From the NCBI GenBank assembly GCA_001917435.1, contig MNEA01000021.1:1-64000 (forward strand): a stretch of DNA of 64,000 nucleotides. The letters run 5' to 3'. Below the pieces are notes generated by a model that made no database searches, was not told the DNA's origin, and was given only the letters and a program-made list of their open reading frames with translations. Positions 3,501 through 12,078 of this stretch are shown piece by piece (within the stretch, counting starts at the first letter, position 1; the number at the start of each line of letters is the position of its first letter). The position numbers and the translations under genes were made by a program. This stretch comes from Acidobacteria bacterium 13_2_20CM_2_57_6 (GTDB lineage Bacteria > Acidobacteriota > Terriglobia > Acidiferrales > UBA7541).

Positions 3501-4116
3501 TCGTGCTTGGGTTGAAGGTGGCTGTAGTGCCGGGTGGGAGTCCACTAATACTCAACGCCACCAAGTACGTGGGAGGGGAAGTTGCATTAAATCCTGTAGA
3601 GAATTGATAGGCCCCCGAGCCTCCGATCGGGACCTGCACTTCAGAAAACAACGGTGAGACAAAATAGAAGGCGGGCAACGGCGTCGTCTGCACGGTGACC
3701 GGTATCGATACGGACGTTGTTGTAGAACCAGCTTGGCCGCTCAGAGTGAGCGTGTACTGACCTGATGCTATGCTTGCCGAAGCTTGAAGCGTGATGGATG
3801 CTCCAGTGGCGGGGACACTGAGGGGGAATGTGGTTGTTGTGGTCAACCCCGCAGGCAAGTTGTTCAAAGTCACTGTTGGCGTAGCTGAGATGTTGGATCC
3901 CTGAGCGGTGACATCTACTACGAGGCTGCTGTTCGGCAAAAGAATTATCGCGGTGGGCGTCACGGTGAGTGAAAGGGAGGCTGGCGTGGGTGCGGGTGCG
4001 GGAGTGTTCGATGAACTTCCTCCTCCGCACGAAACTGCCGTCCAGGGTAGAGACAACAACAATAGCACTCGAATGAGGCCTATGAACTGAGGTGAGGGCT
4101 GCCACACATTAGGCAC
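590..4116 (-). pseudogene. Secreted lipoprotein with Ig-like, beta-propeller and TIG domains, one frameshift
   Basis: Two overlapping minus-strand frames make one protein of about 1,170 residues. The first runs from the putative start at 4116 to about 1510, the second from about 1516 to 590. Just after the start is a hydrophobic stretch ending in TAVSC-GGGSSS, a lipoprotein signal with its lipobox Cys. Then come Thr/Ser-rich Ig-like repeats (about 3.3-4.05 kb), YVTN-like propeller segments such as DPHGMDMAVDNSRVWIA, and IPT/TIG-type domains, the last at the C-terminus (GQIQVRGSGFTTGTTAQIGG). The first frame goes out of register near 1509-1516 (GGGCAAT); shifting one base restores CPVNTADPRCTRGPLYVA followed by the second frame. 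The start is uncertain: a GTG at 4116 or 4107 fits, because residues encoded further upstream do not look coding. Probably surface exposed; ligand unknown. The shift may be a real mutation or an assembly error. Confidence 0.65.
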
Positions 4117-4254
4117 GATTCGTGGGAAATGGAGCACAGCGCACCATTGGGCTGAGCAAAAGAGAAGCCCTTGCAAAAGCAATACCAGGGCGTCCACAAA
4201 TAAATCGGCGGCTAATATATTACAATATTTCTGCGTCATCGAAAATGCTCGACC

Positions 4255-4267
4255 GGCTAAATCGGTT
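4255..4267 (-). promoter_or_regulatory. LacI-type operator-like site upstream of the TIG lipoprotein gene
   Basis: On the minus strand this reads AACCGATTTAGCC, identical over 13 bases to part of the palindromic operator before the LacI gene at 16675. It lies about 140 bases upstream of the proposed start at 4116. I infer that the same regulator may act here; the left half-site is less symmetric than in the 16.5 kb copy. Confidence 0.4.
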
Positions 4268-4681
4268 AAATACCCGTCAATAGACGATGGTCTCGCTAGG
4301 CCGGGAACAAAGAGGCAGACCCAACCCATTGTTGCCCCTGTTGCTGTAGGGTGCAGGCTGCAACCACCCGAGTGTGGTCGAGTGCCAAGGAGTGCTGACG
4401 CCATGCACACTGGTGCGTGGCACGGCTTCTCCGGCGTGAGGTAGAGCCGCGCAAATGACGAGGCCCTCGCAGAACCAGTCCAATAGTGAGTATGGTTCCC
4501 TCGAAGGGCTTGGCGCTTGCACCAATTCAGTTCCAAGCAGAAGTCCTTGCTTTCTCAGGGCGAGAACTCGCGCCTTGGAACAATTGCAGTACCCTTAGAA
4601 CATTCTTGGGGCAAAATCATCTGTCCGACGGCAATATTCAGGAGGCACCAGGTGTAAGGGCAAGTGAATCAACAAGGCTTG

Positions 4682-4728
4682 TGGAGCGGACGATGGGAAT
4701 CGAATCCACATCCGAAGTTTGGGAATCT
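4682..4728 (-). tRNA. tRNA-Gly(CCC) 3'-half remnant, possible attachment site
   Basis: The minus strand reads from an anticodon loop TTCCCAA, through a T-loop TTCGATT with mostly paired T-stem, to the acceptor strand CGTCCGC, discriminator T and an encoded CCA. No 5' half able to pair (GCGGACG) precedes it, and the anticodon stem has mismatches, so it is not an intact tRNA. A fragment that begins at the anticodon loop and runs to CCA is what tyrosine-recombinase elements duplicate when they integrate into a tRNA gene. No integrase is visible nearby. Confidence 0.55.
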
Positions 4729-4857
4729 ACTAATCCCTTTGTTGGTCGGTCAGCTGCGTTCATGCGGCCAAGGCGTCGGCGAAGGAGTAGCGAAAAGGCA
4801 CGGTCAAGATGGCAGTTTCGGTGCATTGCAGCCCCCCGCAACCATTTCGTGATCCGC

Positions 4858-4886
4858 AGGCCGGAATCCAGGATTCCGGCCTTTTT
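4858..4886 (+). terminator. Intrinsic terminator on the plus strand
   Basis: AGGCCGGAAT pairs perfectly with ATTCCGGCCT around a 5-base CCAGG loop and is followed by TTTTT. The T-run is on the plus strand, yet no plus-strand gene ends just upstream. The transcript it served may have been lost with the rearranged tRNA sequence to its left. Confidence 0.75.
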
Positions 4887-5165
4887 CGTGCAACCCCTGG
4901 CGGGCTAGCCATTTCGTCGCACACCGTCTCCAGGAAACCCTTCTCCGCTTATAGAATTAACCACCGCGTCCGCTCCCGCAAGACAGGAGAGGACGGAAAG
5001 ACTTGGCGCGAATATTTTCGATTGAACTTTTTGTTAGCTACGGCGGTGATTGTGAGCACAATCCAGCCCCGTGAAATATCGACGCTTGCTTAGGGTCAAT
5101 TGCTTTTGTCTTGCGCACCGGGGGAAGGAAATCCCCCCGGCGCGTAAGAAATGCCAGAGGGCGGA

Positions 5166-5507
5166 TTACAACAGCTTGATCGAACTTACTTTCAGCGTGT
5201 CGCCCTGCACGTCTCCGCTCACATCCACGCGCAGGTGATCTTTCTTGTCCGAAGCTTTCAGTGCCTCCGCAATCTTTGCGTTCCCCTCCGCGTCGAACTT
5301 CAGGAATTGTTTGTCCTTCGTCACGATGCCAAAGCCACTCGCCGCGCACTTTAGTGCGCAAGCCCGCGGGTGGGAGTCCGGGTCGGCGGCCACCTTCTTC
5401 GAACAGTTCACGTCCACCACCGGCACATCTTTATAGCTCTCTGCAGCACCAAACGCCGGCACCGCACAGAGCCAGGCTACTACTAGAAACGAAGCAAGTT
5501 TTCTCAT
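5166..5507 (-). CDS. Small secreted protein with three conserved-looking Cys
   Basis: 113 residues. A signal peptide (MRKLASFLVVAWLCAVPAFG, cleavage near AAES) points to export. The mature part has Cys35 and the pair Cys50-x3-Cys54 in NCSKK and RACALKCAAS, then a small beta-rich domain ending GDVQGDTLKVSSIKLL, which looks like an OB-like or metal/redox-binding fold. I do not know a named family. It lies 65 bases downstream of the DoxX gene on the same strand and probably shares its ECF-type promoter. A periplasmic stress or metal-related role is inference from that context. Confidence 0.75.
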   Translation of the reverse strand: MRKLASFLVVAWLCAVPAFGAAESYKDVPVVDVNCSKKVAADPDSHPRACALKCAASGFGIVTKDKQFLKFDAEGNAKIAEALKASDKKDHLRVDVSGDVQGDTLKVSSIKLL

Positions 5508-5572
5508 CGTATCCTCCGATTCAGTTTTTTGGTCTTACCGAGTGTAGACTGCTTTTGACCTTAGTGCCCTGC

Positions 5573-5974
5573 TTACTCCCCTTTTGTGCGGGTTTGTTCA
5601 CGCACCGCCGCCAGTTGCGACAGCGCAAACGCACCAATCGCAATCTCGACGTCCCGCATGGCCAGGTCATAGAACATGCCGGTTGTCAGCAGGTTCACCG
5701 CAATGCCGACCAACCAGAGCATAACGATGTAACTTCCGAGTTTTGTCCACCGGCTCAGAACAATCAGCCCGGCTAGAATTTCCACAACACCAACGCCGCG
5801 CATGAAGGTTGTCGTGCTGACCGGCACAATTTTTGTCGCGATGGGGCTGAGGTACATCCCCCAGTCCGTCAACTTATTGAAGAATTTGTCGATGCCTGTG
5901 ATGATGGGCCCCATGCCAAGGCCGATTCTCAGCGCCCACCAGCCGGCATTGAGACGGCCATCGAAGTCTGTCAT
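5573..5974 (-). CDS. DoxX-family membrane protein
   Basis: 133 residues with about four hydrophobic segments (roughly 10-28, 58-75, 78-98, 104-122), the usual size and layout of DoxX/SURF4-like proteins. The start WWALRIGLGMGPIITGIDKFF and the central VGVVEILAGLIVL are typical. DoxX proteins sit in the inner membrane and are linked to redox or oxidative-stress functions; the exact reaction is not settled. GGTAGGAA precedes the ATG. The gene is divergent from the ECF sigma gene at 6150, and both have the same promoter motif at the same spacing, so it is probably a direct target of that sigma factor. Confidence 0.85.
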   Translation of the reverse strand: MTDFDGRLNAGWWALRIGLGMGPIITGIDKFFNKLTDWGMYLSPIATKIVPVSTTTFMRGVGVVEILAGLIVLSRWTKLGSYIVMLWLVGIAVNLLTTGMFYDLAMRDVEIAIGAFALSQLAAVREQTRTKGE

Positions 5975-5992
5975 TTCCTACCCCCACTTAGA

Positions 5993-6019
5993 AGAGCGGC
6001 GAGGGCCCGAATGGTTACA
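5993..6019 (-). promoter_or_regulatory. ECF-sigma-type promoter for the DoxX unit
   Basis: On the minus strand TGTAACC (6019-6013) is followed after 14 bases by CGCTCT (5998-5993), and ATTC follows the first element directly. The identical elements and spacing occur on the plus strand before the sigma gene. The AAC-containing -35 and C-rich -10 resemble ECF promoters. DoxX starts about 19 bases downstream. Confidence 0.6.
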
Positions 6020-6107
6020 GTCATTTCGCGGCCTGAAGTCCTCGGGAATCGATTCCTGGCAAGCCAGGGATCATTGACCACGAGCGCTTTGACTCTAGCA
6101 AGACCCC

Positions 6108-6134
6108 TGTAACCATTCTTCTCCTCCGCGCTCT
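6108..6134 (+). promoter_or_regulatory. ECF-sigma-type promoter, probable autoregulation
   Basis: TGTAACC (6108-6114), 14 bases, then CGCTCT (6129-6134), matching the minus-strand copy at 5993-6019 and sharing the 11-mer TGTAACCATTC. The sigma start codon at 6150 is only about 16 bases beyond the -10, so the transcript would have a very short leader, or the true start codon lies a little downstream. Confidence 0.6.
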
Positions 6135-6149
6135 ATACTTTAGAGAGCC

Positions 6150-6854
6150 ATGGATACCATTGGAATTCTCGAGAAGGCCAAGTTGGAAGGCTGGACCGAC
6201 GAGGAAGTCATCGAGCGGGTGAAAGCCGGCGACACCGCTCTATATGAGATTGTCATGCGCCGCTACAACCAGCGGCTTTATCGTGTCGCCCGCGCAATTC
6301 TGCACGATGATGCCGAGGCGGAAGACGTGATGCAGGATGCATACGTCCGGGCTTATCAGCACCTTAGCCAGTTTGCCGGACGCGCACCGTTTTCCGCCTG
6401 GTTGACGCGCATTGCGGTCAACGAAGCGCTGGCCCGGCTCCGCTCGCGCAGCCGGACCGGGCAATTAGAAGAAGCAGAGCAAGAGGGAGAATTTTTTATG
6501 ACCATGGCTGAAACTTCGCCGGATCCGGAGCAAGGTGCATCCCGGGCCGAGCTTGGTCACCTCCTGGAAGAGGCCGTGCTTGGCCTTCCGCAGCAGTTCC
6601 GCGCCGTGGTCATACTGCGCGACGTCGAAGAATTGACCACTTCAGAGACCGCCGTGGCGCTCGACCTCTCTGAGGAAAACGTGAAAGTCCGCCTCCATCG
6701 AGGCCACGCCTTGTTGCGCGGCTGGCTGTTTAACCGGGTCGGGGCCGAGGCAAAAAATGCTTTTCCATTCATGGGCGTCCGCTGCGATCGTGTTGTTCAC
6801 AGCGTACTTCTGCGACTTGCAAATTTAAGCAGCGATAAGCCCCAAATACACTGA
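6150..6854 (+). CDS. ECF RNA polymerase sigma factor (RpoE-like)
   Basis: 234 residues. Region 2 spans about 24-100, with YNQRLYRVARAIL, the DAEAEDVMQDAYVRAYQHL core-binding/-10 segment and SAWLTRIAVNEALARLR. Region 4 lies at about 145-190 (LPQQFRAVVILRDVEELTTSETAVALDLSEENVKVRLHRG), the helix-turn-helix for the -35. A C-terminal tail of about 40 residues follows, which is not typical. No anti-sigma gene follows, so control may lie elsewhere. A matching promoter motif in front suggests autoregulation and control of the divergent DoxX gene. Confidence 0.92.
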   Translation: MDTIGILEKAKLEGWTDEEVIERVKAGDTALYEIVMRRYNQRLYRVARAILHDDAEAEDVMQDAYVRAYQHLSQFAGRAPFSAWLTRIAVNEALARLRSRSRTGQLEEAEQEGEFFMTMAETSPDPEQGASRAELGHLLEEAVLGLPQQFRAVVILRDVEELTTSETAVALDLSEENVKVRLHRGHALLRGWLFNRVGAEAKNAFPFMGVRCDRVVHSVLLRLANLSSDKPQIH

Positions 6855-6999: not shown

Positions 7000-7028
7000 G
7001 GGGCACGTCAATGCCGTGCCCCTTCTCT
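7000..7028 (+). terminator. Probable terminator after the sigma gene
   Basis: GGGGCACG (7000-7007) pairs exactly with CGTGCCCC (7015-7022) around a 7-base loop, followed by the interrupted T-run TTCTCTT. It sits about 145 bases beyond the sigma stop codon and before the tonB-like gene. The T-run is weak. Confidence 0.45.
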
Positions 7029-7100
7029 TGTCCAATTGCTTTTCTTTTCCGGACATCGCATAAACCCAGTTTTGCATCTTACTAAGTGAAGGTGAATGAG

Positions 7101-7961
7101 ATGCGTGGTCATCGATCTCCAGTCACCGACGAAGAAGAGCTGCACCTAAGTGCAAATCTCAGCAACTCCTCACCGTCGAATTCTCAACCCTTTCCCAAAA
7201 CGCCAAAGCCATCAGCAAATCTTGCCGCTAGCTTGCTGAGCAATAGTGGTATGAAACCTCCCAGTCGAACATGGAAGGTTTTGCTCTCCTTTCTCGGACA
7301 TAGCGTTGCTTTGACAATCATTATCCTCATTCCTTTGCTATACAGCCACTCGATGGATCTCTCGCAATTCCGAAACACCTTCCTCGTGGCTCCGCCCCCA
7401 CCGCCTCCTCCGTCTGCACCTCGCATAGTGCCAAGCCATCCCGCTTTCCATCTGCGAGAGGCAGAGCTCTATCAACCTCGAGTAATTCCGAGGCAGATTG
7501 CCCAGATCAAAGATGAGCCTCCGCCCTCACAGCCCGCTTTTTCCTGCGTGTCAGGTGGGGTACCTGGTGGAGTACCGGGCGGACAATTGCGTGGTGTCTT
7601 GGGAGGAATTCTAGGCCCTGGAAGCCGCCAACTTGTTCCCCCGCCTCCGCCGAAGCTAATACCCCGCCACGGACCATATCGTGTTGGAGGAAAAGTCCAG
7701 GCGCCCCGCCTTCTACGGCAAGTCCAACCCATTTATCCAATCCTGGCCAAGGTAGCCAGAGTTTCTGGAAAGGTGGCAATCGATTCTGTGATCGACGAGC
7801 AAGGCAACGTCACGCAAATGAAAGTTGTTTCTGGAAATCCCCTTCTGGTGACTGCCGCCCTCAACGCTGTAGAGCAGTGGAAGTACCAGCCCACGCTTCT
7901 CAATGGGCAGCCCATTGCGGTTGATATGGAAGTGACCGTAACCTTTAAACTCGGAGTTTGA
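7101..7961 (+). CDS. TonB-type energy transducer
   Basis: 286 residues from ATG 7101, which has AAGGTG six bases upstream; an in-frame GTG at 7086 is possible. After about 55 soluble N-terminal residues there is one membrane span (LLSFLGHSVALTIIILIPLLY). A periplasmic linker with a run of seven prolines and a Gly-rich GGVPGGVPGG stretch follows, then a C-terminal TonB domain (QPIYPILAKVARVSGKVAIDSVIDE to the end). TonB couples the inner-membrane proton gradient to outer-membrane receptors. The longer cytoplasmic tail before the span is common in acidobacterial versions. No ExbB/ExbD lie nearby. It could serve the receptor encoded 550 bases downstream. Confidence 0.9.
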   Translation: MRGHRSPVTDEEELHLSANLSNSSPSNSQPFPKTPKPSANLAASLLSNSGMKPPSRTWKVLLSFLGHSVALTIIILIPLLYSHSMDLSQFRNTFLVAPPPPPPPSAPRIVPSHPAFHLREAELYQPRVIPRQIAQIKDEPPPSQPAFSCVSGGVPGGVPGGQLRGVLGGILGPGSRQLVPPPPPKLIPRHGPYRVGGKVQAPRLLRQVQPIYPILAKVARVSGKVAIDSVIDEQGNVTQMKVVSGNPLLVTAALNAVEQWKYQPTLLNGQPIAVDMEVTVTFKLGV

Positions 7962-8406
7962 ATCTCGTCAATCGGATCGGTTCTCTGTTGCCGTTGGCGG
8001 TTGGATCATCCGCCAGGGATGCAGCCAAAGCCGTTGTAGCGATCAAGGGCCCAAACGAGCTCTCTTGAAAGTGAGTGCTTGTTATGTTCCAGCATCCAAC
8101 TAGCGTCCACGATCCAAGGTTTCGGTGCGGTTTTTGGGGTCTCCGAACTGTAAGGGCAATTGAGTCATCCAAGACTTAGGGTTTGATCGTTAAACTCATA
8201 ACCAGAAGGTCGTCAGTTCAATTCTGCCCCCCGCAAGCATGGGCGCTGCAAGGAAAATCTTGTAAGCACCCTCCTCATTATTTTACGAGTTGAGCTTCTG
8301 CACGCGGCACTCGGCGTCCCGAACCATTAGTCCCGTCAATTTATTCCGGAAACCCAGCCTCGGGGAGGATTGAAATCAATTGAAATCAATACCAAATCAA
8401 TACTGC
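7962..8406. other. Intergenic region before the receptor gene
   Basis: No protein gene seen. It carries the tRNA-Met 3'-half remnant at 8195-8236 and, just before the receptor promoter, short AAATCAAT direct repeats near 8370-8402. Confidence 0.5.
8195..8236 (+). tRNA. tRNA-Met(CAT) 3'-half remnant, possible attachment site
   Basis: The sequence starts with the anticodon loop CTCATAA (CAT at 8197-8199) and continues with CCAGA and AGG. The T-arm is GTCAG-TTCAATT-CTGCC with one mismatch, and the acceptor strand CCCCGCA plus A follows, ending in GCA rather than CCA. Upstream bases cannot form the 5' half: neither a TGCGGGG acceptor strand nor a TCTGG anticodon stem is present. Like the Gly remnant at 4.7 kb it begins exactly at the anticodon loop, the usual crossover point of tRNA-targeting integrases. 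Confidence 0.55.
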
Positions 8407-8435
8407 TTGACATTTGAAAACACGATGTTTAGACT
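8407..8435 (+). promoter_or_regulatory. Sigma-70-type promoter of the TonB-dependent receptor
   Basis: TTGACA (8407-8412), a 17-base spacer and TAGACT (8430-8435). The predicted start is near 8442, leaving a leader of about 70 bases. The architecture matches the promoter of the receptor at 63484. Confidence 0.65.
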
Positions 8436-8449
8436 CCGCGGCAATGGTA

Positions 8450-8464
8450 GTGAAACGATTTAGC
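8450..8464 (+). promoter_or_regulatory. LacI-type operator candidate downstream of the receptor promoter
   Basis: GTGAAACGATTTAGC, centred on CG at 8456-8457. Its right half CGATTTAGC equals the half-site of the palindrome before the LacI gene at 16675. It lies about 25 bases past the -10, a position where a repressor would block transcription. Confidence 0.5.
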
Positions 8465-8514
8465 TGAGGGTGCTAGGCCATTTGGCAAGTTTTCTTGGGG
8501 TGAAGGAGCGACTC

Positions 8515-11500
8515 ATGAGCCTGTCCAAGATTTTCTTCCGCATCACGTTGTTGCTGGCTTGCGGAGTGTTTTTTGCCGTGGCAGCGCATGCGCAGTTTAA
8601 GGCCAGCATCCAGGGCACGGTCATGGATCCTCAGGGGACAGCAGTTCCCGGCGCTAAGGTCACCGTCACCAATGAGGATACCGGAATCGCCCGCGATACT
8701 GTTACGTCAGACCAGGGCTTCTATCGTATCAGCGAACTGCCACCCGGTAAGTACACGGTTAGTGTCGAAGGGGCCGGATTCAAGACATCGGTTTCAAAGG
8801 GCGTCGTGGTCGAAGCGGAGCAGCCGCGCGGACTCGACATCACGTTGGCGGTAGGTAACATTCAGGATTCCGTCACAGTAACCGCCTCTACCGGGGGACT
8901 GGAGACGGAGAACGCCAACGTAAACACCACGATTGGAACTCAGGAGGTGCTCACGCTGCCTCAATTCGGGAGGGATCCCTACGAACTGCTCCACATGGCG
9001 CCCGGCGTGTTCGGCGACAACGCGCGGCAGGGCAATGGAAATTCTTTCGCTCTTCCTCAGCAGGTTGGGCCGGGCCAATCAAACAGCTCAATCTTCCAGA
9101 CCGAAAATCAGGTACAAATTGTCTCCAACGGTCAGCGCGTAACGGCAAACAATTACAGCCTCGACGGCGTAAGCGTTAATAGCCTGAGTAACGGTGGCTC
9201 CGCAGTTGTCACCCCGAACCAGGAATCGGTCCAACAGATTATTGTTACTTCTGCTTCATACAACGCTGAGCAAGGGCGAAATTCCGGCGCTCAGATCGAA
9301 GTCATCTCCAAGGGCGGCAGCAACAATTACCATGGAAGCGGTCTGATTAAGTTCAATGACAAGGGACTGAATGCTTTCAACAAATTCTACGGAGCAAACA
9401 ACATCCCGCTCAGTCAAATCACTTGCGAGGGTGGCGCATTCAAGATCGTGGCTCAGCATTGCCCGACCAGAAACGACCAGAAGTACCGGGATTTTGCGGG
9501 GAGTCTTGGCGGCCCCGTCATAAAGAATAAGCTCTTTTTCTTCTTCTCCTATGAGGGCCTCCGTCAAACCAATACAGTCGTCAGCCGCAGTGTGAAGCTG
9601 GAGACCCCAGCCTTTGAAAAATACGTCCAGCAGGCCGAGCCGAACAGCATCGCCGCCAAGATTTTCAGCACACCCGGAATCGCGCCGCGGATCACGACGA
9701 CTCTCTCGCAAACTGATTGTTGCTCCCTTATTACAAGTCCGAGCGACCCCAACTATCATCCATTGGGGACGTGGTATCAACCTGGAATCGGAATTGGTCA
9801 GGCCGTCGGCAACGGGCCAGATGGCACGACGGACTGGGGCCTCTTCGACCTCACCAAACCCAATTCGAGCAGCGGCAACCAGTACAATGCTCGCGCTGAC
9901 TACACTCTGGGTGCAAACCAATTCTTTGCTAGCACTTACCTTGTGAACTTGACCAGCGTCAACGGGGGAAATCGGCCCCTTGAAGATGTTGGCTTCGCTC
10001 CGAAGAACTATGTCGGCACGCTCGGGTGGACTCGCACGATTTCTTCCGTCATGGTTAACGAAGCTCGCTTTAATTTCACCCGCTTTGCTTTTGACCAGCT
10101 CCAACCCACGGGCCAGACCAATTATGGCATCCCTCAGATCGAGTTGTTCGATTTCGATGCTGGCGGCTTGGGGGACGCAGGGACTATTATGGGTATCGGC
10201 CAAGCAGGCACCACCCCCGGTAACCTTGCAGAGAACACCTTCGCCTTTCGCGATACGGTGAGCTGGGTGCACGGTGTTCACGCATTCAAATTCGGCGTGG
10301 ACATCACGCGCGAGCAGAACAATGACGACGAGCCTGGCTTTGAGCGACCCAAGTATCAATTCCGCGGCTTGCTCAATTTTGCCAACGACGCCTGTTGCTT
10401 TTTCGAAAATGTCGCCGTGGATCCGAACACTGGCGGCCATCCCAACGGAAGGCGTTATTTCCGCGACGCTGCCTATTCTCTTTTCGTTCAGGATGACTGG
10501 AAACTTCGGCCAAACTTAACGGTTAACCTGGGGCTGCGGTGGGAATATTTCGCGCCACTCTCGGAAAAGAATGGCCTGCTCAGCAATTACATCTTTGGCT
10601 CCCAGGGCTTCGTGAATGGTTCAGTCCAAAGAGTGACGAAGCTCTATAATGCGGACAAAAAGGACTTTGGCCCTCGCATCGGTTTCGCTTGGAGCCCAAA
10701 TGTCTTGGGGAAGAAGACCGTCCTTCGTGGTGGGTTCGGCATCCTTTTCAACCGGCCATTTGAATCTGAATACAGCAATATTCGTCAGGACACACCGCTT
10801 GCCGCTCAGGCGAGTACCTGTTGCTTTTTCGATCCCGGCAAGATTACTGGCCCCCCTCCGGGTTCCGGCATTCTGTACGGAATCGGCTCGAGCACAAGTG
10901 CCACCAGCTACGCGCCCAATCCCAATTTCTCGTTTGGGGTAGCTCCCGATGGAGCCCTCTGCGCCAATGCCGGCTGCACTGCGGTGACTAAGGTTGACAT
11001 CTTTGGAGCCTTGCCTAATGAACCTACTCCGTATGTCTATGTCTATTCGTTACAGACGCAGTTCGAACCCATCCACAATTGGCAAGCCACTATCGGCTAT
11101 CAGGGTAGCCGCAGTCGCAAGCTTGCTCGCACTATCGACCTAAATCGGTTCCACCCGGGCGATACATTTGACGGCAATATGGATGGAGTGCAAAGCGCCA
11201 GCGCGGATGGTGTAGCCTGCGGCTCTACAAATCCCGCCTGCCCTGCGCCCATTGTTGTCGGCAATAACCGCTTTAACAGAGTCTTCATACCTTTTCCTGA
11301 CGTCAACGCTAGCTTCGATGCCCTGATCACTCAACTTTCTCATTCTTTTGCGGGCGGCTTCACCATTTCGACCCTCTATACGTGGAGCCACTCCATCGAC
11401 TTCTCTTCTTACGAGATTGGTTTTCAACAAACCGACCCATTCACCCAATCCATCGACAAAGGCAATTCCGACTTCGACGTGCGCCAAAGCCTGGGCATAT

Positions 11501-12078
11501 CCGGTTACTATGAGCTGCCGCTTTATCGTGGCAGGCATGACCTCATGGGCGCCATCGCCGGCGGCTGGACTCTCGGCGCTGTGTTCACTAAACACACCGG
11601 CTTCTCCTTTACCGCTCTAATTGGGAGTTGTGATACGAATCACGATCTGAACGGTGATGGAGCCTGCCCAGACATGCCCATCGTTTACGCCGGCGGCAAA
11701 ATCGCAAATCCATCTAAGCAGGACTGGCAGAATGGCGTCTTCACCAGCATCGCCGCCAGCTTCCCGGGCTCCACCACAGTCCCCCCGGCATCGCATGGGC
11801 CGGGCTGCCGTTGCCGGAATATTTTTGAAGGGCCTGGATTCACCCAGCTCGACTTGTCCTTCGGGAAAAACTTCCTGCTTCCAAACTCACGCGTGTTAGG
11901 TGAGAACGCCAAGCTCGAGTTCCGCAGCAATTTCTTTAATGCTCTCAATATTTTGAATCTCGAGTCATTGGCGCCTGCCACCGCACCAACTGACGTCGTG
12001 AACGCCGGGCAATTCGGCCGGCCCCTGGATGGTCTCTCGGGCCGCGTCATCGAATTCCAGTTACGGCTCAGCTTCTAG
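8515..12078 (+). CDS. TonB-dependent receptor with carboxypeptidase-regulatory domain (Oar-like)
   Basis: 1,187 residues. ATG 8515 is chosen because AAGGAG lies 6 bases upstream and it begins a signal peptide (MSLSKIFFRITLLLACGVFF...AHAQ). Next comes a carboxypeptidase-regulatory domain (about 30-110: ASIQGTVMDPQGTAVPGAKV...LPPGKYTV), then a plug region (about 135-280, NSLSNGGSAV, NAEQGRNSGAQIEVISKGG), and an outer-membrane barrel ending in an aromatic Phe (FQLRLSF). No SusD-type partner is present. Neighbouring GH144, GH3 and LacI genes suggest glucan oligosaccharides as substrate; this is inference. A promoter and operator-like site precede it and a terminator follows. Confidence 0.93.
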   Translation: MSLSKIFFRITLLLACGVFFAVAAHAQFKASIQGTVMDPQGTAVPGAKVTVTNEDTGIARDTVTSDQGFYRISELPPGKYTVSVEGAGFKTSVSKGVVVEAEQPRGLDITLAVGNIQDSVTVTASTGGLETENANVNTTIGTQEVLTLPQFGRDPYELLHMAPGVFGDNARQGNGNSFALPQQVGPGQSNSSIFQTENQVQIVSNGQRVTANNYSLDGVSVNSLSNGGSAVVTPNQESVQQIIVTSASYNAEQGRNSGAQIEVISKGGSNNYHGSGLIKFNDKGLNAFNKFYGANNIPLSQITCEGGAFKIVAQHCPTRNDQKYRDFAGSLGGPVIKNKLFFFFSYEGLRQTNTVVSRSVKLETPAFEKYVQQAEPNSIAAKIFSTPGIAPRITTTLSQTDCCSLITSPSDPNYHPLGTWYQPGIGIGQAVGNGPDGTTDWGLFDLTKPNSSSGNQYNARADYTLGANQFFASTYLVNLTSVNGGNRPLEDVGFAPKNYVGTLGWTRTISSVMVNEARFNFTRFAFDQLQPTGQTNYGIPQIELFDFDAGGLGDAGTIMGIGQAGTTPGNLAENTFAFRDTVSWVHGVHAFKFGVDITREQNNDDEPGFERPKYQFRGLLNFANDACCFFENVAVDPNTGGHPNGRRYFRDAAYSLFVQDDWKLRPNLTVNLGLRWEYFAPLSEKNGLLSNYIFGSQGFVNGSVQRVTKLYNADKKDFGPRIGFAWSPNVLGKKTVLRGGFGILFNRPFESEYSNIRQDTPLAAQASTCCFFDPGKITGPPPGSGILYGIGSSTSATSYAPNPNFSFGVAPDGALCANAGCTAVTKVDIFGALPNEPTPYVYVYSLQTQFEPIHNWQATIGYQGSRSRKLARTIDLNRFHPGDTFDGNMDGVQSASADGVACGSTNPACPAPIVVGNNRFNRVFIPFPDVNASFDALITQLSHSFAGGFTISTLYTWSHSIDFSSYEIGFQQTDPFTQSIDKGNSDFDVRQSLGISGYYELPLYRGRHDLMGAIAGGWTLGAVFTKHTGFSFTALIGSCDTNHDLNGDGACPDMPIVYAGGKIANPSKQDWQNGVFTSIAASFPGSTTVPPASHGPGCRCRNIFEGPGFTQLDLSFGKNFLLPNSRVLGENAKLEFRSNFFNALNILNLESLAPATAPTDVVNAGQFGRPLDGLSGRVIEFQLRLSF

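Follow-up and report, generated by a model that had tools for sequence, protein, structure and literature searches.

The 64,000-nucleotide stretch analyzed here (positions 1 to 64,000 of contig MNEA01000021.1 from Acidobacteria bacterium 13_2_20CM_2_57_6, hereafter the window) carries a gene for an extracytoplasmic function (ECF) sigma factor of 234 amino acids (aa) on the forward strand at 6150–6854, divergent from a doxX-like gene on the reverse strand at 5573–5974 that encodes a 133-aa DoxX/MauE-like membrane protein. The latter is followed in the same direction by a gene for a small secreted protein of 113 aa (5166–5507, reverse strand). Between the two divergent genes, the pattern TGTAACC-N14-CGCTCT occurs once on each strand, as site 1 on the doxX side (5993–6019, reverse strand; TGTAACCATTCGGGCCCTCGCCGCTCT) and site 2 on the sigma side (6108–6134, forward strand; TGTAACCATTCTTCTCCTCCGCGCTCT), with their TGTAACC boxes oriented toward each other as an inverted repeat (TGTAACC...GGTTACA). 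From comparison of orthologous loci, these sites are best read as divergent promoters recognized by the locus's own ECF sigma factor, a reading to which we assign a probability of roughly 0.9, and the arrangement of these putative promoters is kept across the Acidobacteriota.

Pattern searches of the window and of the whole assembly (4.46 Mb, 82% complete) bore out an earlier note on this DNA, which had placed one copy of the motif per strand within 5993–6134. The two sites are the only matches in the window when spacers of 10–20 bases are permitted, and the assembly holds no third exact match to TGTAACC-N14-CGCTCT. The accompanying judgment that such identity is hard to explain by chance also held, as dinucleotide shuffles of the window contained a mean of 0.01 matches and none of 100 contained two. 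An 11-base identity between the sites (TGTAACCATTC) is specific to this genome. A scan of the region for sigma-70 promoters gave no match.

Conservation of the Putative Promoter Elements

The search for the sigma factor was widened to 396 genomes of the phylum, 31 of which gave a match at E ≤ 1e-44, and sites were scored against dinucleotide shuffles in 30 divergent sigma/doxX pairs, which span many families of the Acidobacteriota. The earlier note had offered absence of the motif near orthologous pairs as grounds for abandoning its proposal; the motif was found on the sigma side in 30 of 30 pairs and on the doxX side in nearly all. Sigma-side sites scored 10.9–12 of 12 in every locus, against an average of about 8 for the shuffles, and doxX-side sites scored 9–12 of 12. 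In the first set of intergenic regions, TGTAACC-N15/16-RCTCT (R, A or G) likewise faced both genes in nearly every locus.

The orthologues yield the consensus TGT[A/C]ACC-N15/16-[A/G]CTCT, which upholds the two-box element first described and slightly redraws its boundaries, as neither the leading C of CGCTCT nor the ATTC that follows TGTAACC is kept. In the window, the sigma gene's own promoter would thus comprise a −35 box TGTAACC at 6108–6114 (forward strand), kept in the 30 orthologous pairs, and, 15 bases past it, a −10 box GCTCT at 6130–6134, followed by ATA. The putative doxX promoter comprises a −35 box TGTAACC at 6013–6019 (reverse strand), also kept in orthologous pairs, and a −10 box GCTCT at 5993–5997, again 15 bases further on. 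Each gene starts about 16–18 bases past its TGTAACC-N15-GCTCT element. Within the −35 box, G2, T3, A5, and C6 do not vary over the 60 sites, nor do the third-place T and fourth-place C within the −10 box. The spacer has one of two lengths, 15 bases (49 sites) or 16 bases (11 sites). The −35 box carries either A or C at position 4, and the two sites of a locus usually carry the same base (23 A/A, 4 C/C, and 3 mixed; Fisher p 0.003, with shared ancestry ignored). The sequence elements expected of an autoregulated ECF promoter, −35 and −10 boxes at about 15–17 bases, are present and conserved.

Orthologues of the doxX-like protein were found in 11 of 61 genomes, the source genome included, and orthologues of the sigma factor in nearly the same genomes, so that the two co-occur. 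Across these 61 genomes, 11 of the 13 strict motif matches lie at sigma/doxX loci. The genome scan that the earlier note had suggested recovered only the two known copies as exact matches in the source assembly, and near matches were not enriched: up to two mismatches gave 80 places, compared with 149 for a reversed control pattern. As one- and two-mismatch matches in this assembly are no commoner than the control, no further regulon members are claimed. In nine sigma-bearing relatives, 11 of 16 motif matches fall at these loci and one at a sigma paralogue, while the reversed control gave 23; additional exact matches in relatives lie mostly within coding sequence. By pattern search, the detectable regulon is local, comprising the sigma factor, the DoxX/MauE-like membrane protein, and the secreted protein.

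The Sigma Factor and Its Putative Target Genes

The sigma factor matches Pfam Sigma70_r2 and Sigma70_r4_2 and NCBIfam sigma70-ECF and PRK11922, all above cut-off, and has the composition of an ECF sigma factor, with regions 2 and 4 only and neither region 1.1 nor region 3. Solved ECF sigma structures match residues 19–195, and the protein ends in a tail of ∼40 residues. The conserved portion of this tail (FPFMGVRCDRVV; 6762–6797, forward strand) follows the pattern FxFxGxRCDRxV, common to orthologues and distant relatives, and contains one nearly invariant cysteine, Cys212 (codon 6783–6785). An AlphaFold2 model of the sigma factor was too poor for placement of the tail (mean pLDDT 54.7, tail <50) and was not used. 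No anti-sigma gene was recognizable adjacent to the sigma gene in the window or among the scanned neighbors of orthologous loci, and we therefore propose that what controls the sigma factor is probably either its single-cysteine C-terminal tail or an unlinked partner. We hypothesize that the tail might sense the signal directly.

The assignment of the 133-aa protein to the DoxX/MauE type comes from sub-threshold Pfam matches, to MauE at E 5e-5, just below cut-off, with MauE and DoxX matches of its orthologues also below cut-off (DoxX at 3e-4). The 113-aa protein gave no match in the family profile search. By inspection it carries a signal peptide, and among its orthologues Cys35, His46, Cys50, and Cys54 (Cys3-His) are invariant. 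Structure prediction (pLDDT 77.8) gave an OB-like model to which no solved structure is closely related, and the structure matches are OB-fold proteins only (Z up to 6.4), in which SilF (metal binding) and NlpE appear among many unrelated proteins; according to the model the protein probably adopts an OB fold, which is a hint of fold and not of function. A strong 13-pair hairpin directly past the secreted-protein gene (5114–5144, reverse strand) is the probable end of the doxX operon, and a terminator-like hairpin lies between the sigma gene and a TonB-like gene (7000–7022, forward strand). The two hairpins suggest two transcription units, with doxX and the secreted-protein gene forming one operon and the sigma gene standing as a single-gene unit. 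We hypothesize that the output of the doxX/secreted-protein operon is most likely a module for envelope redox, sulfur, or metal protection.

Occurrence of the Motif at Related Sigma Factors

In one genome (G033), a second sigma factor, 53% identical, is directly preceded by TGTAACC-N15-ACTCTAT and has no doxX nearby. On a plasmid of Planctomyces sp. SH-PL62 (L138), a 47%-identical sigma is preceded by TGTAACC-N15-ACTCT at 2813–2839 and itself precedes genes for nitrite/sulfite reductase and phosphoadenylyl-sulfate (PAPS) reductase (3809–6380). The presence of the motif at a doxX-less paralogue and at a planctomycete homologue argues that it tracks the sigma family. Rhizobial-type relatives carry GGGAACC-N15-CATCT/C, apparent promoter boxes, at the equivalent place, and the motif was not found at two related sigma factors that have no tail (L104 and L169).

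Other PRK11922-family sigma factors, from rhizobia, Microvirga, Mesorhizobium, and Planctomyces, nearly all carry an RCDR-type C-terminal tail. Several adjoin DUF4142/cupredoxin or sulfite-reductase genes, and the one from Planctomyces shares the promoter boxes described here. A directly adjacent doxX/secreted-protein pair was seen at none of the annotated members examined. Literature searches on PRK11922 and on sigma factors associated with DUF4142 returned no useful account and no description of the PRK11922 family.

In the sigma paralogue group at L125 (G033:C4) and L150 (G314), the sigma gene is preceded by the same motif and followed by a DUF3857-type gene, with no doxX. At L153 and L154 (about 400–1460), acidobacterial tailed sigmas with TGTAACC-N15-CATC are divergent from DUF4142-like and cupredoxin-like genes (assigned by inspection), a gene pair that matches the one at rhizobial sigma loci L139 and L141. 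At L188 (G107:C3:670682-670708), the promoter-like sequence TGTAACC-N15-GCTCTAA stands at position 1527 on the reverse strand before a different DoxX-type gene. Next in line are genes for an ECF sigma of 33% identity and, by inspection, a zf-HC2-like anti-sigma factor, making this a second ECF-DoxX operon.

Relation to Known ECF Systems

The closest parallels are found among ECF16 sigma factors. SigF of Caulobacter crescentus recognizes a GTAACC-N16-CGAA promoter, has DoxX in its regulon, responds to metal stress, is held by NrsF (DUF1109), and counts DUF692 (MNIO) genes among its targets (PMC3511200). Its −35 box is alike, whereas its −10 box CGAA differs from the RCTCT found here in all loci, and the small protein of the present system is unrelated in its family matches. 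No match to NrsF (PF06532) was found in the 82%-complete source assembly, although the control Caulobacter genome was positive, and no match to MNIO (PF05114) was found there with positive controls, which sets the locus apart from bufferin/gig operons. In Brucella melitensis, TGTAACC promoters of the self-regulated BcrS/bcrXQP system face both ways between the sigma gene and a divergent target operon (PMC8315932). This bidirectional layout is like the one described here, but the −10 box of the Brucella system is GCGAAA, its target is a methionine-rich peptide operon, and a cognate anti-sigma gene lies in the sigma operon. EcfF-OsrA of Bradyrhizobium japonicum is likewise autoregulated, with a GTAAC −35 box and a 14–15 base spacer (PMC3420878); unlike the present system it has a (c,t)CG(t,a) −10 element and the adjacent anti-sigma OsrA. 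The system thus resembles ECF16 in its −35 box and architecture, yet by the −10-box and NrsF tests it is not an ECF16 member.

Regulation of DoxX gene clusters by an ECF sigma has also been reported in the case of Haemophilus RpoE2 (PMC7907618). Some of the ECF groups that lack anti-sigma factors are controlled by a C-terminal extension; the metal-sensing CorE type is one (PMC8999054). CorE-type sigmas have a cysteine-rich C-terminal domain and a CXC in the linker, whereas the tail described here has a single conserved cysteine and no CXC appears in the alignment.

Proposed Regulation and Alternative Explanations

The motif had been put forward in the earlier note as the recognition sequence of a sigma factor that autoregulates and controls doxX together with a secreted-protein module, and both proposals gain support from the 30 orthologous pairs, the paralogue, and the planctomycete homologue. 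The motif is present in all orthologous pairs and tracks the sigma factor, and the best reading is therefore that the sigma factor regulates itself and the doxX and secreted-protein genes from these putative promoters. The active sigma factor would steer RNA polymerase to both elements; from the sigma-side promoter it would amplify its own synthesis, and from the doxX-side promoter it would switch on the DoxX/MauE-like membrane protein and the co-directional secreted, cysteine-containing OB-fold protein. The system would then work like known autoregulated ECF stress switches, as a well-supported case of an established kind.

Several observations weigh against this reading. The doxX-side sites of two loci (L043 and L164) are weak and individually not significant against shuffles, and each site was chosen as the best-scoring one of its region, a procedure that somewhat favors invariance, with the same selection given to the shuffles. 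In one genome (G025; L124, G025:C57, 8518–8732), the sigma gene has been lost from the interval that separates doxX from a thiolase gene; the boxes of the putative doxX promoter persist there and the sigma-side −10 box has decayed. In another (G030), the sigma reading frame is broken, possibly through an assembly error. No motif was found at four more distant tailed sigmas (L161, L167, L168, and L170).

The doxX site that G025 retains without this sigma would also fit real promoters that serve chiefly some other sigma factor, such as another ECF, with the adjacent sigma as just one target. The G107 operon described above has a similar motif although its ECF sigma is only 33% identical, and a near-identical −35 box is read by ECF16 sigmas. 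We consider this very unlikely, as the motif is nearly limited to loci and genomes where this sigma is present and precedes both its paralogue and its planctomycete homologue. The inverted repeat formed by the two −35 boxes could instead be the operator of a separate transcription factor controlling both divergent genes. The gene-to-gene interval, however, is about 100 bases at its shortest, extends to several hundred, and is 1191 in one locus, while each site mostly keeps its distance to the start codon of its own gene (commonly 15–23 bases), which points to two promoters and not one operator. Each site also keeps its second box 15–16 bases downstream, and a site stands alone at the sigma paralogue. 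With sites spaced so variably from locus to locus, a dyad operator is very unlikely and was rejected. An identity that arose by chance or through local duplication might be entertained from the small number of bases involved and from the restriction of the 11-base identity to this genome; given the shuffle results and a pair kept across the phylum with unrelated spacers, this is exceedingly improbable and was discarded on the orthologue comparison.

Read as divergent promoters of the adjacent sigma factor, the two sites provide, for an ECF sigma family undescribed in the literature searched, a concrete promoter consensus and a minimal regulon of two operons, within a phylum for which few genetic tools exist. 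The sigma-promoter pair is compact and apparently without an adjacent anti-sigma, and the conserved cysteine tail together with the envelope genes raises the question of direct redox or metal sensing by the sigma factor. A broader and tentative idea, which we regard as doubtful, is that the PRK11922-type family, from Acidobacteriota to planctomycetes and rhizobia, acts as a one-protein switch in which the cysteine tail would sense an oxidant, sulfur species, or metal without an anti-sigma and drive interchangeable envelope-protection modules, the boxes shifting between branches. If so, the module would be DoxX and the OB-fold protein here, and DUF4142 and cupredoxin or sulfite-reduction genes elsewhere.

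Flanking Genes

Neighbors outside the trio of sigma, doxX, and secreted-protein genes are not conserved among orthologous loci. In the window, the genes past the sigma gene (7086–12078, forward strand), part of this variable neighborhood, are a TonB-like gene and a large gene that by inspection is similar to TonB-dependent receptors of acidobacteria.
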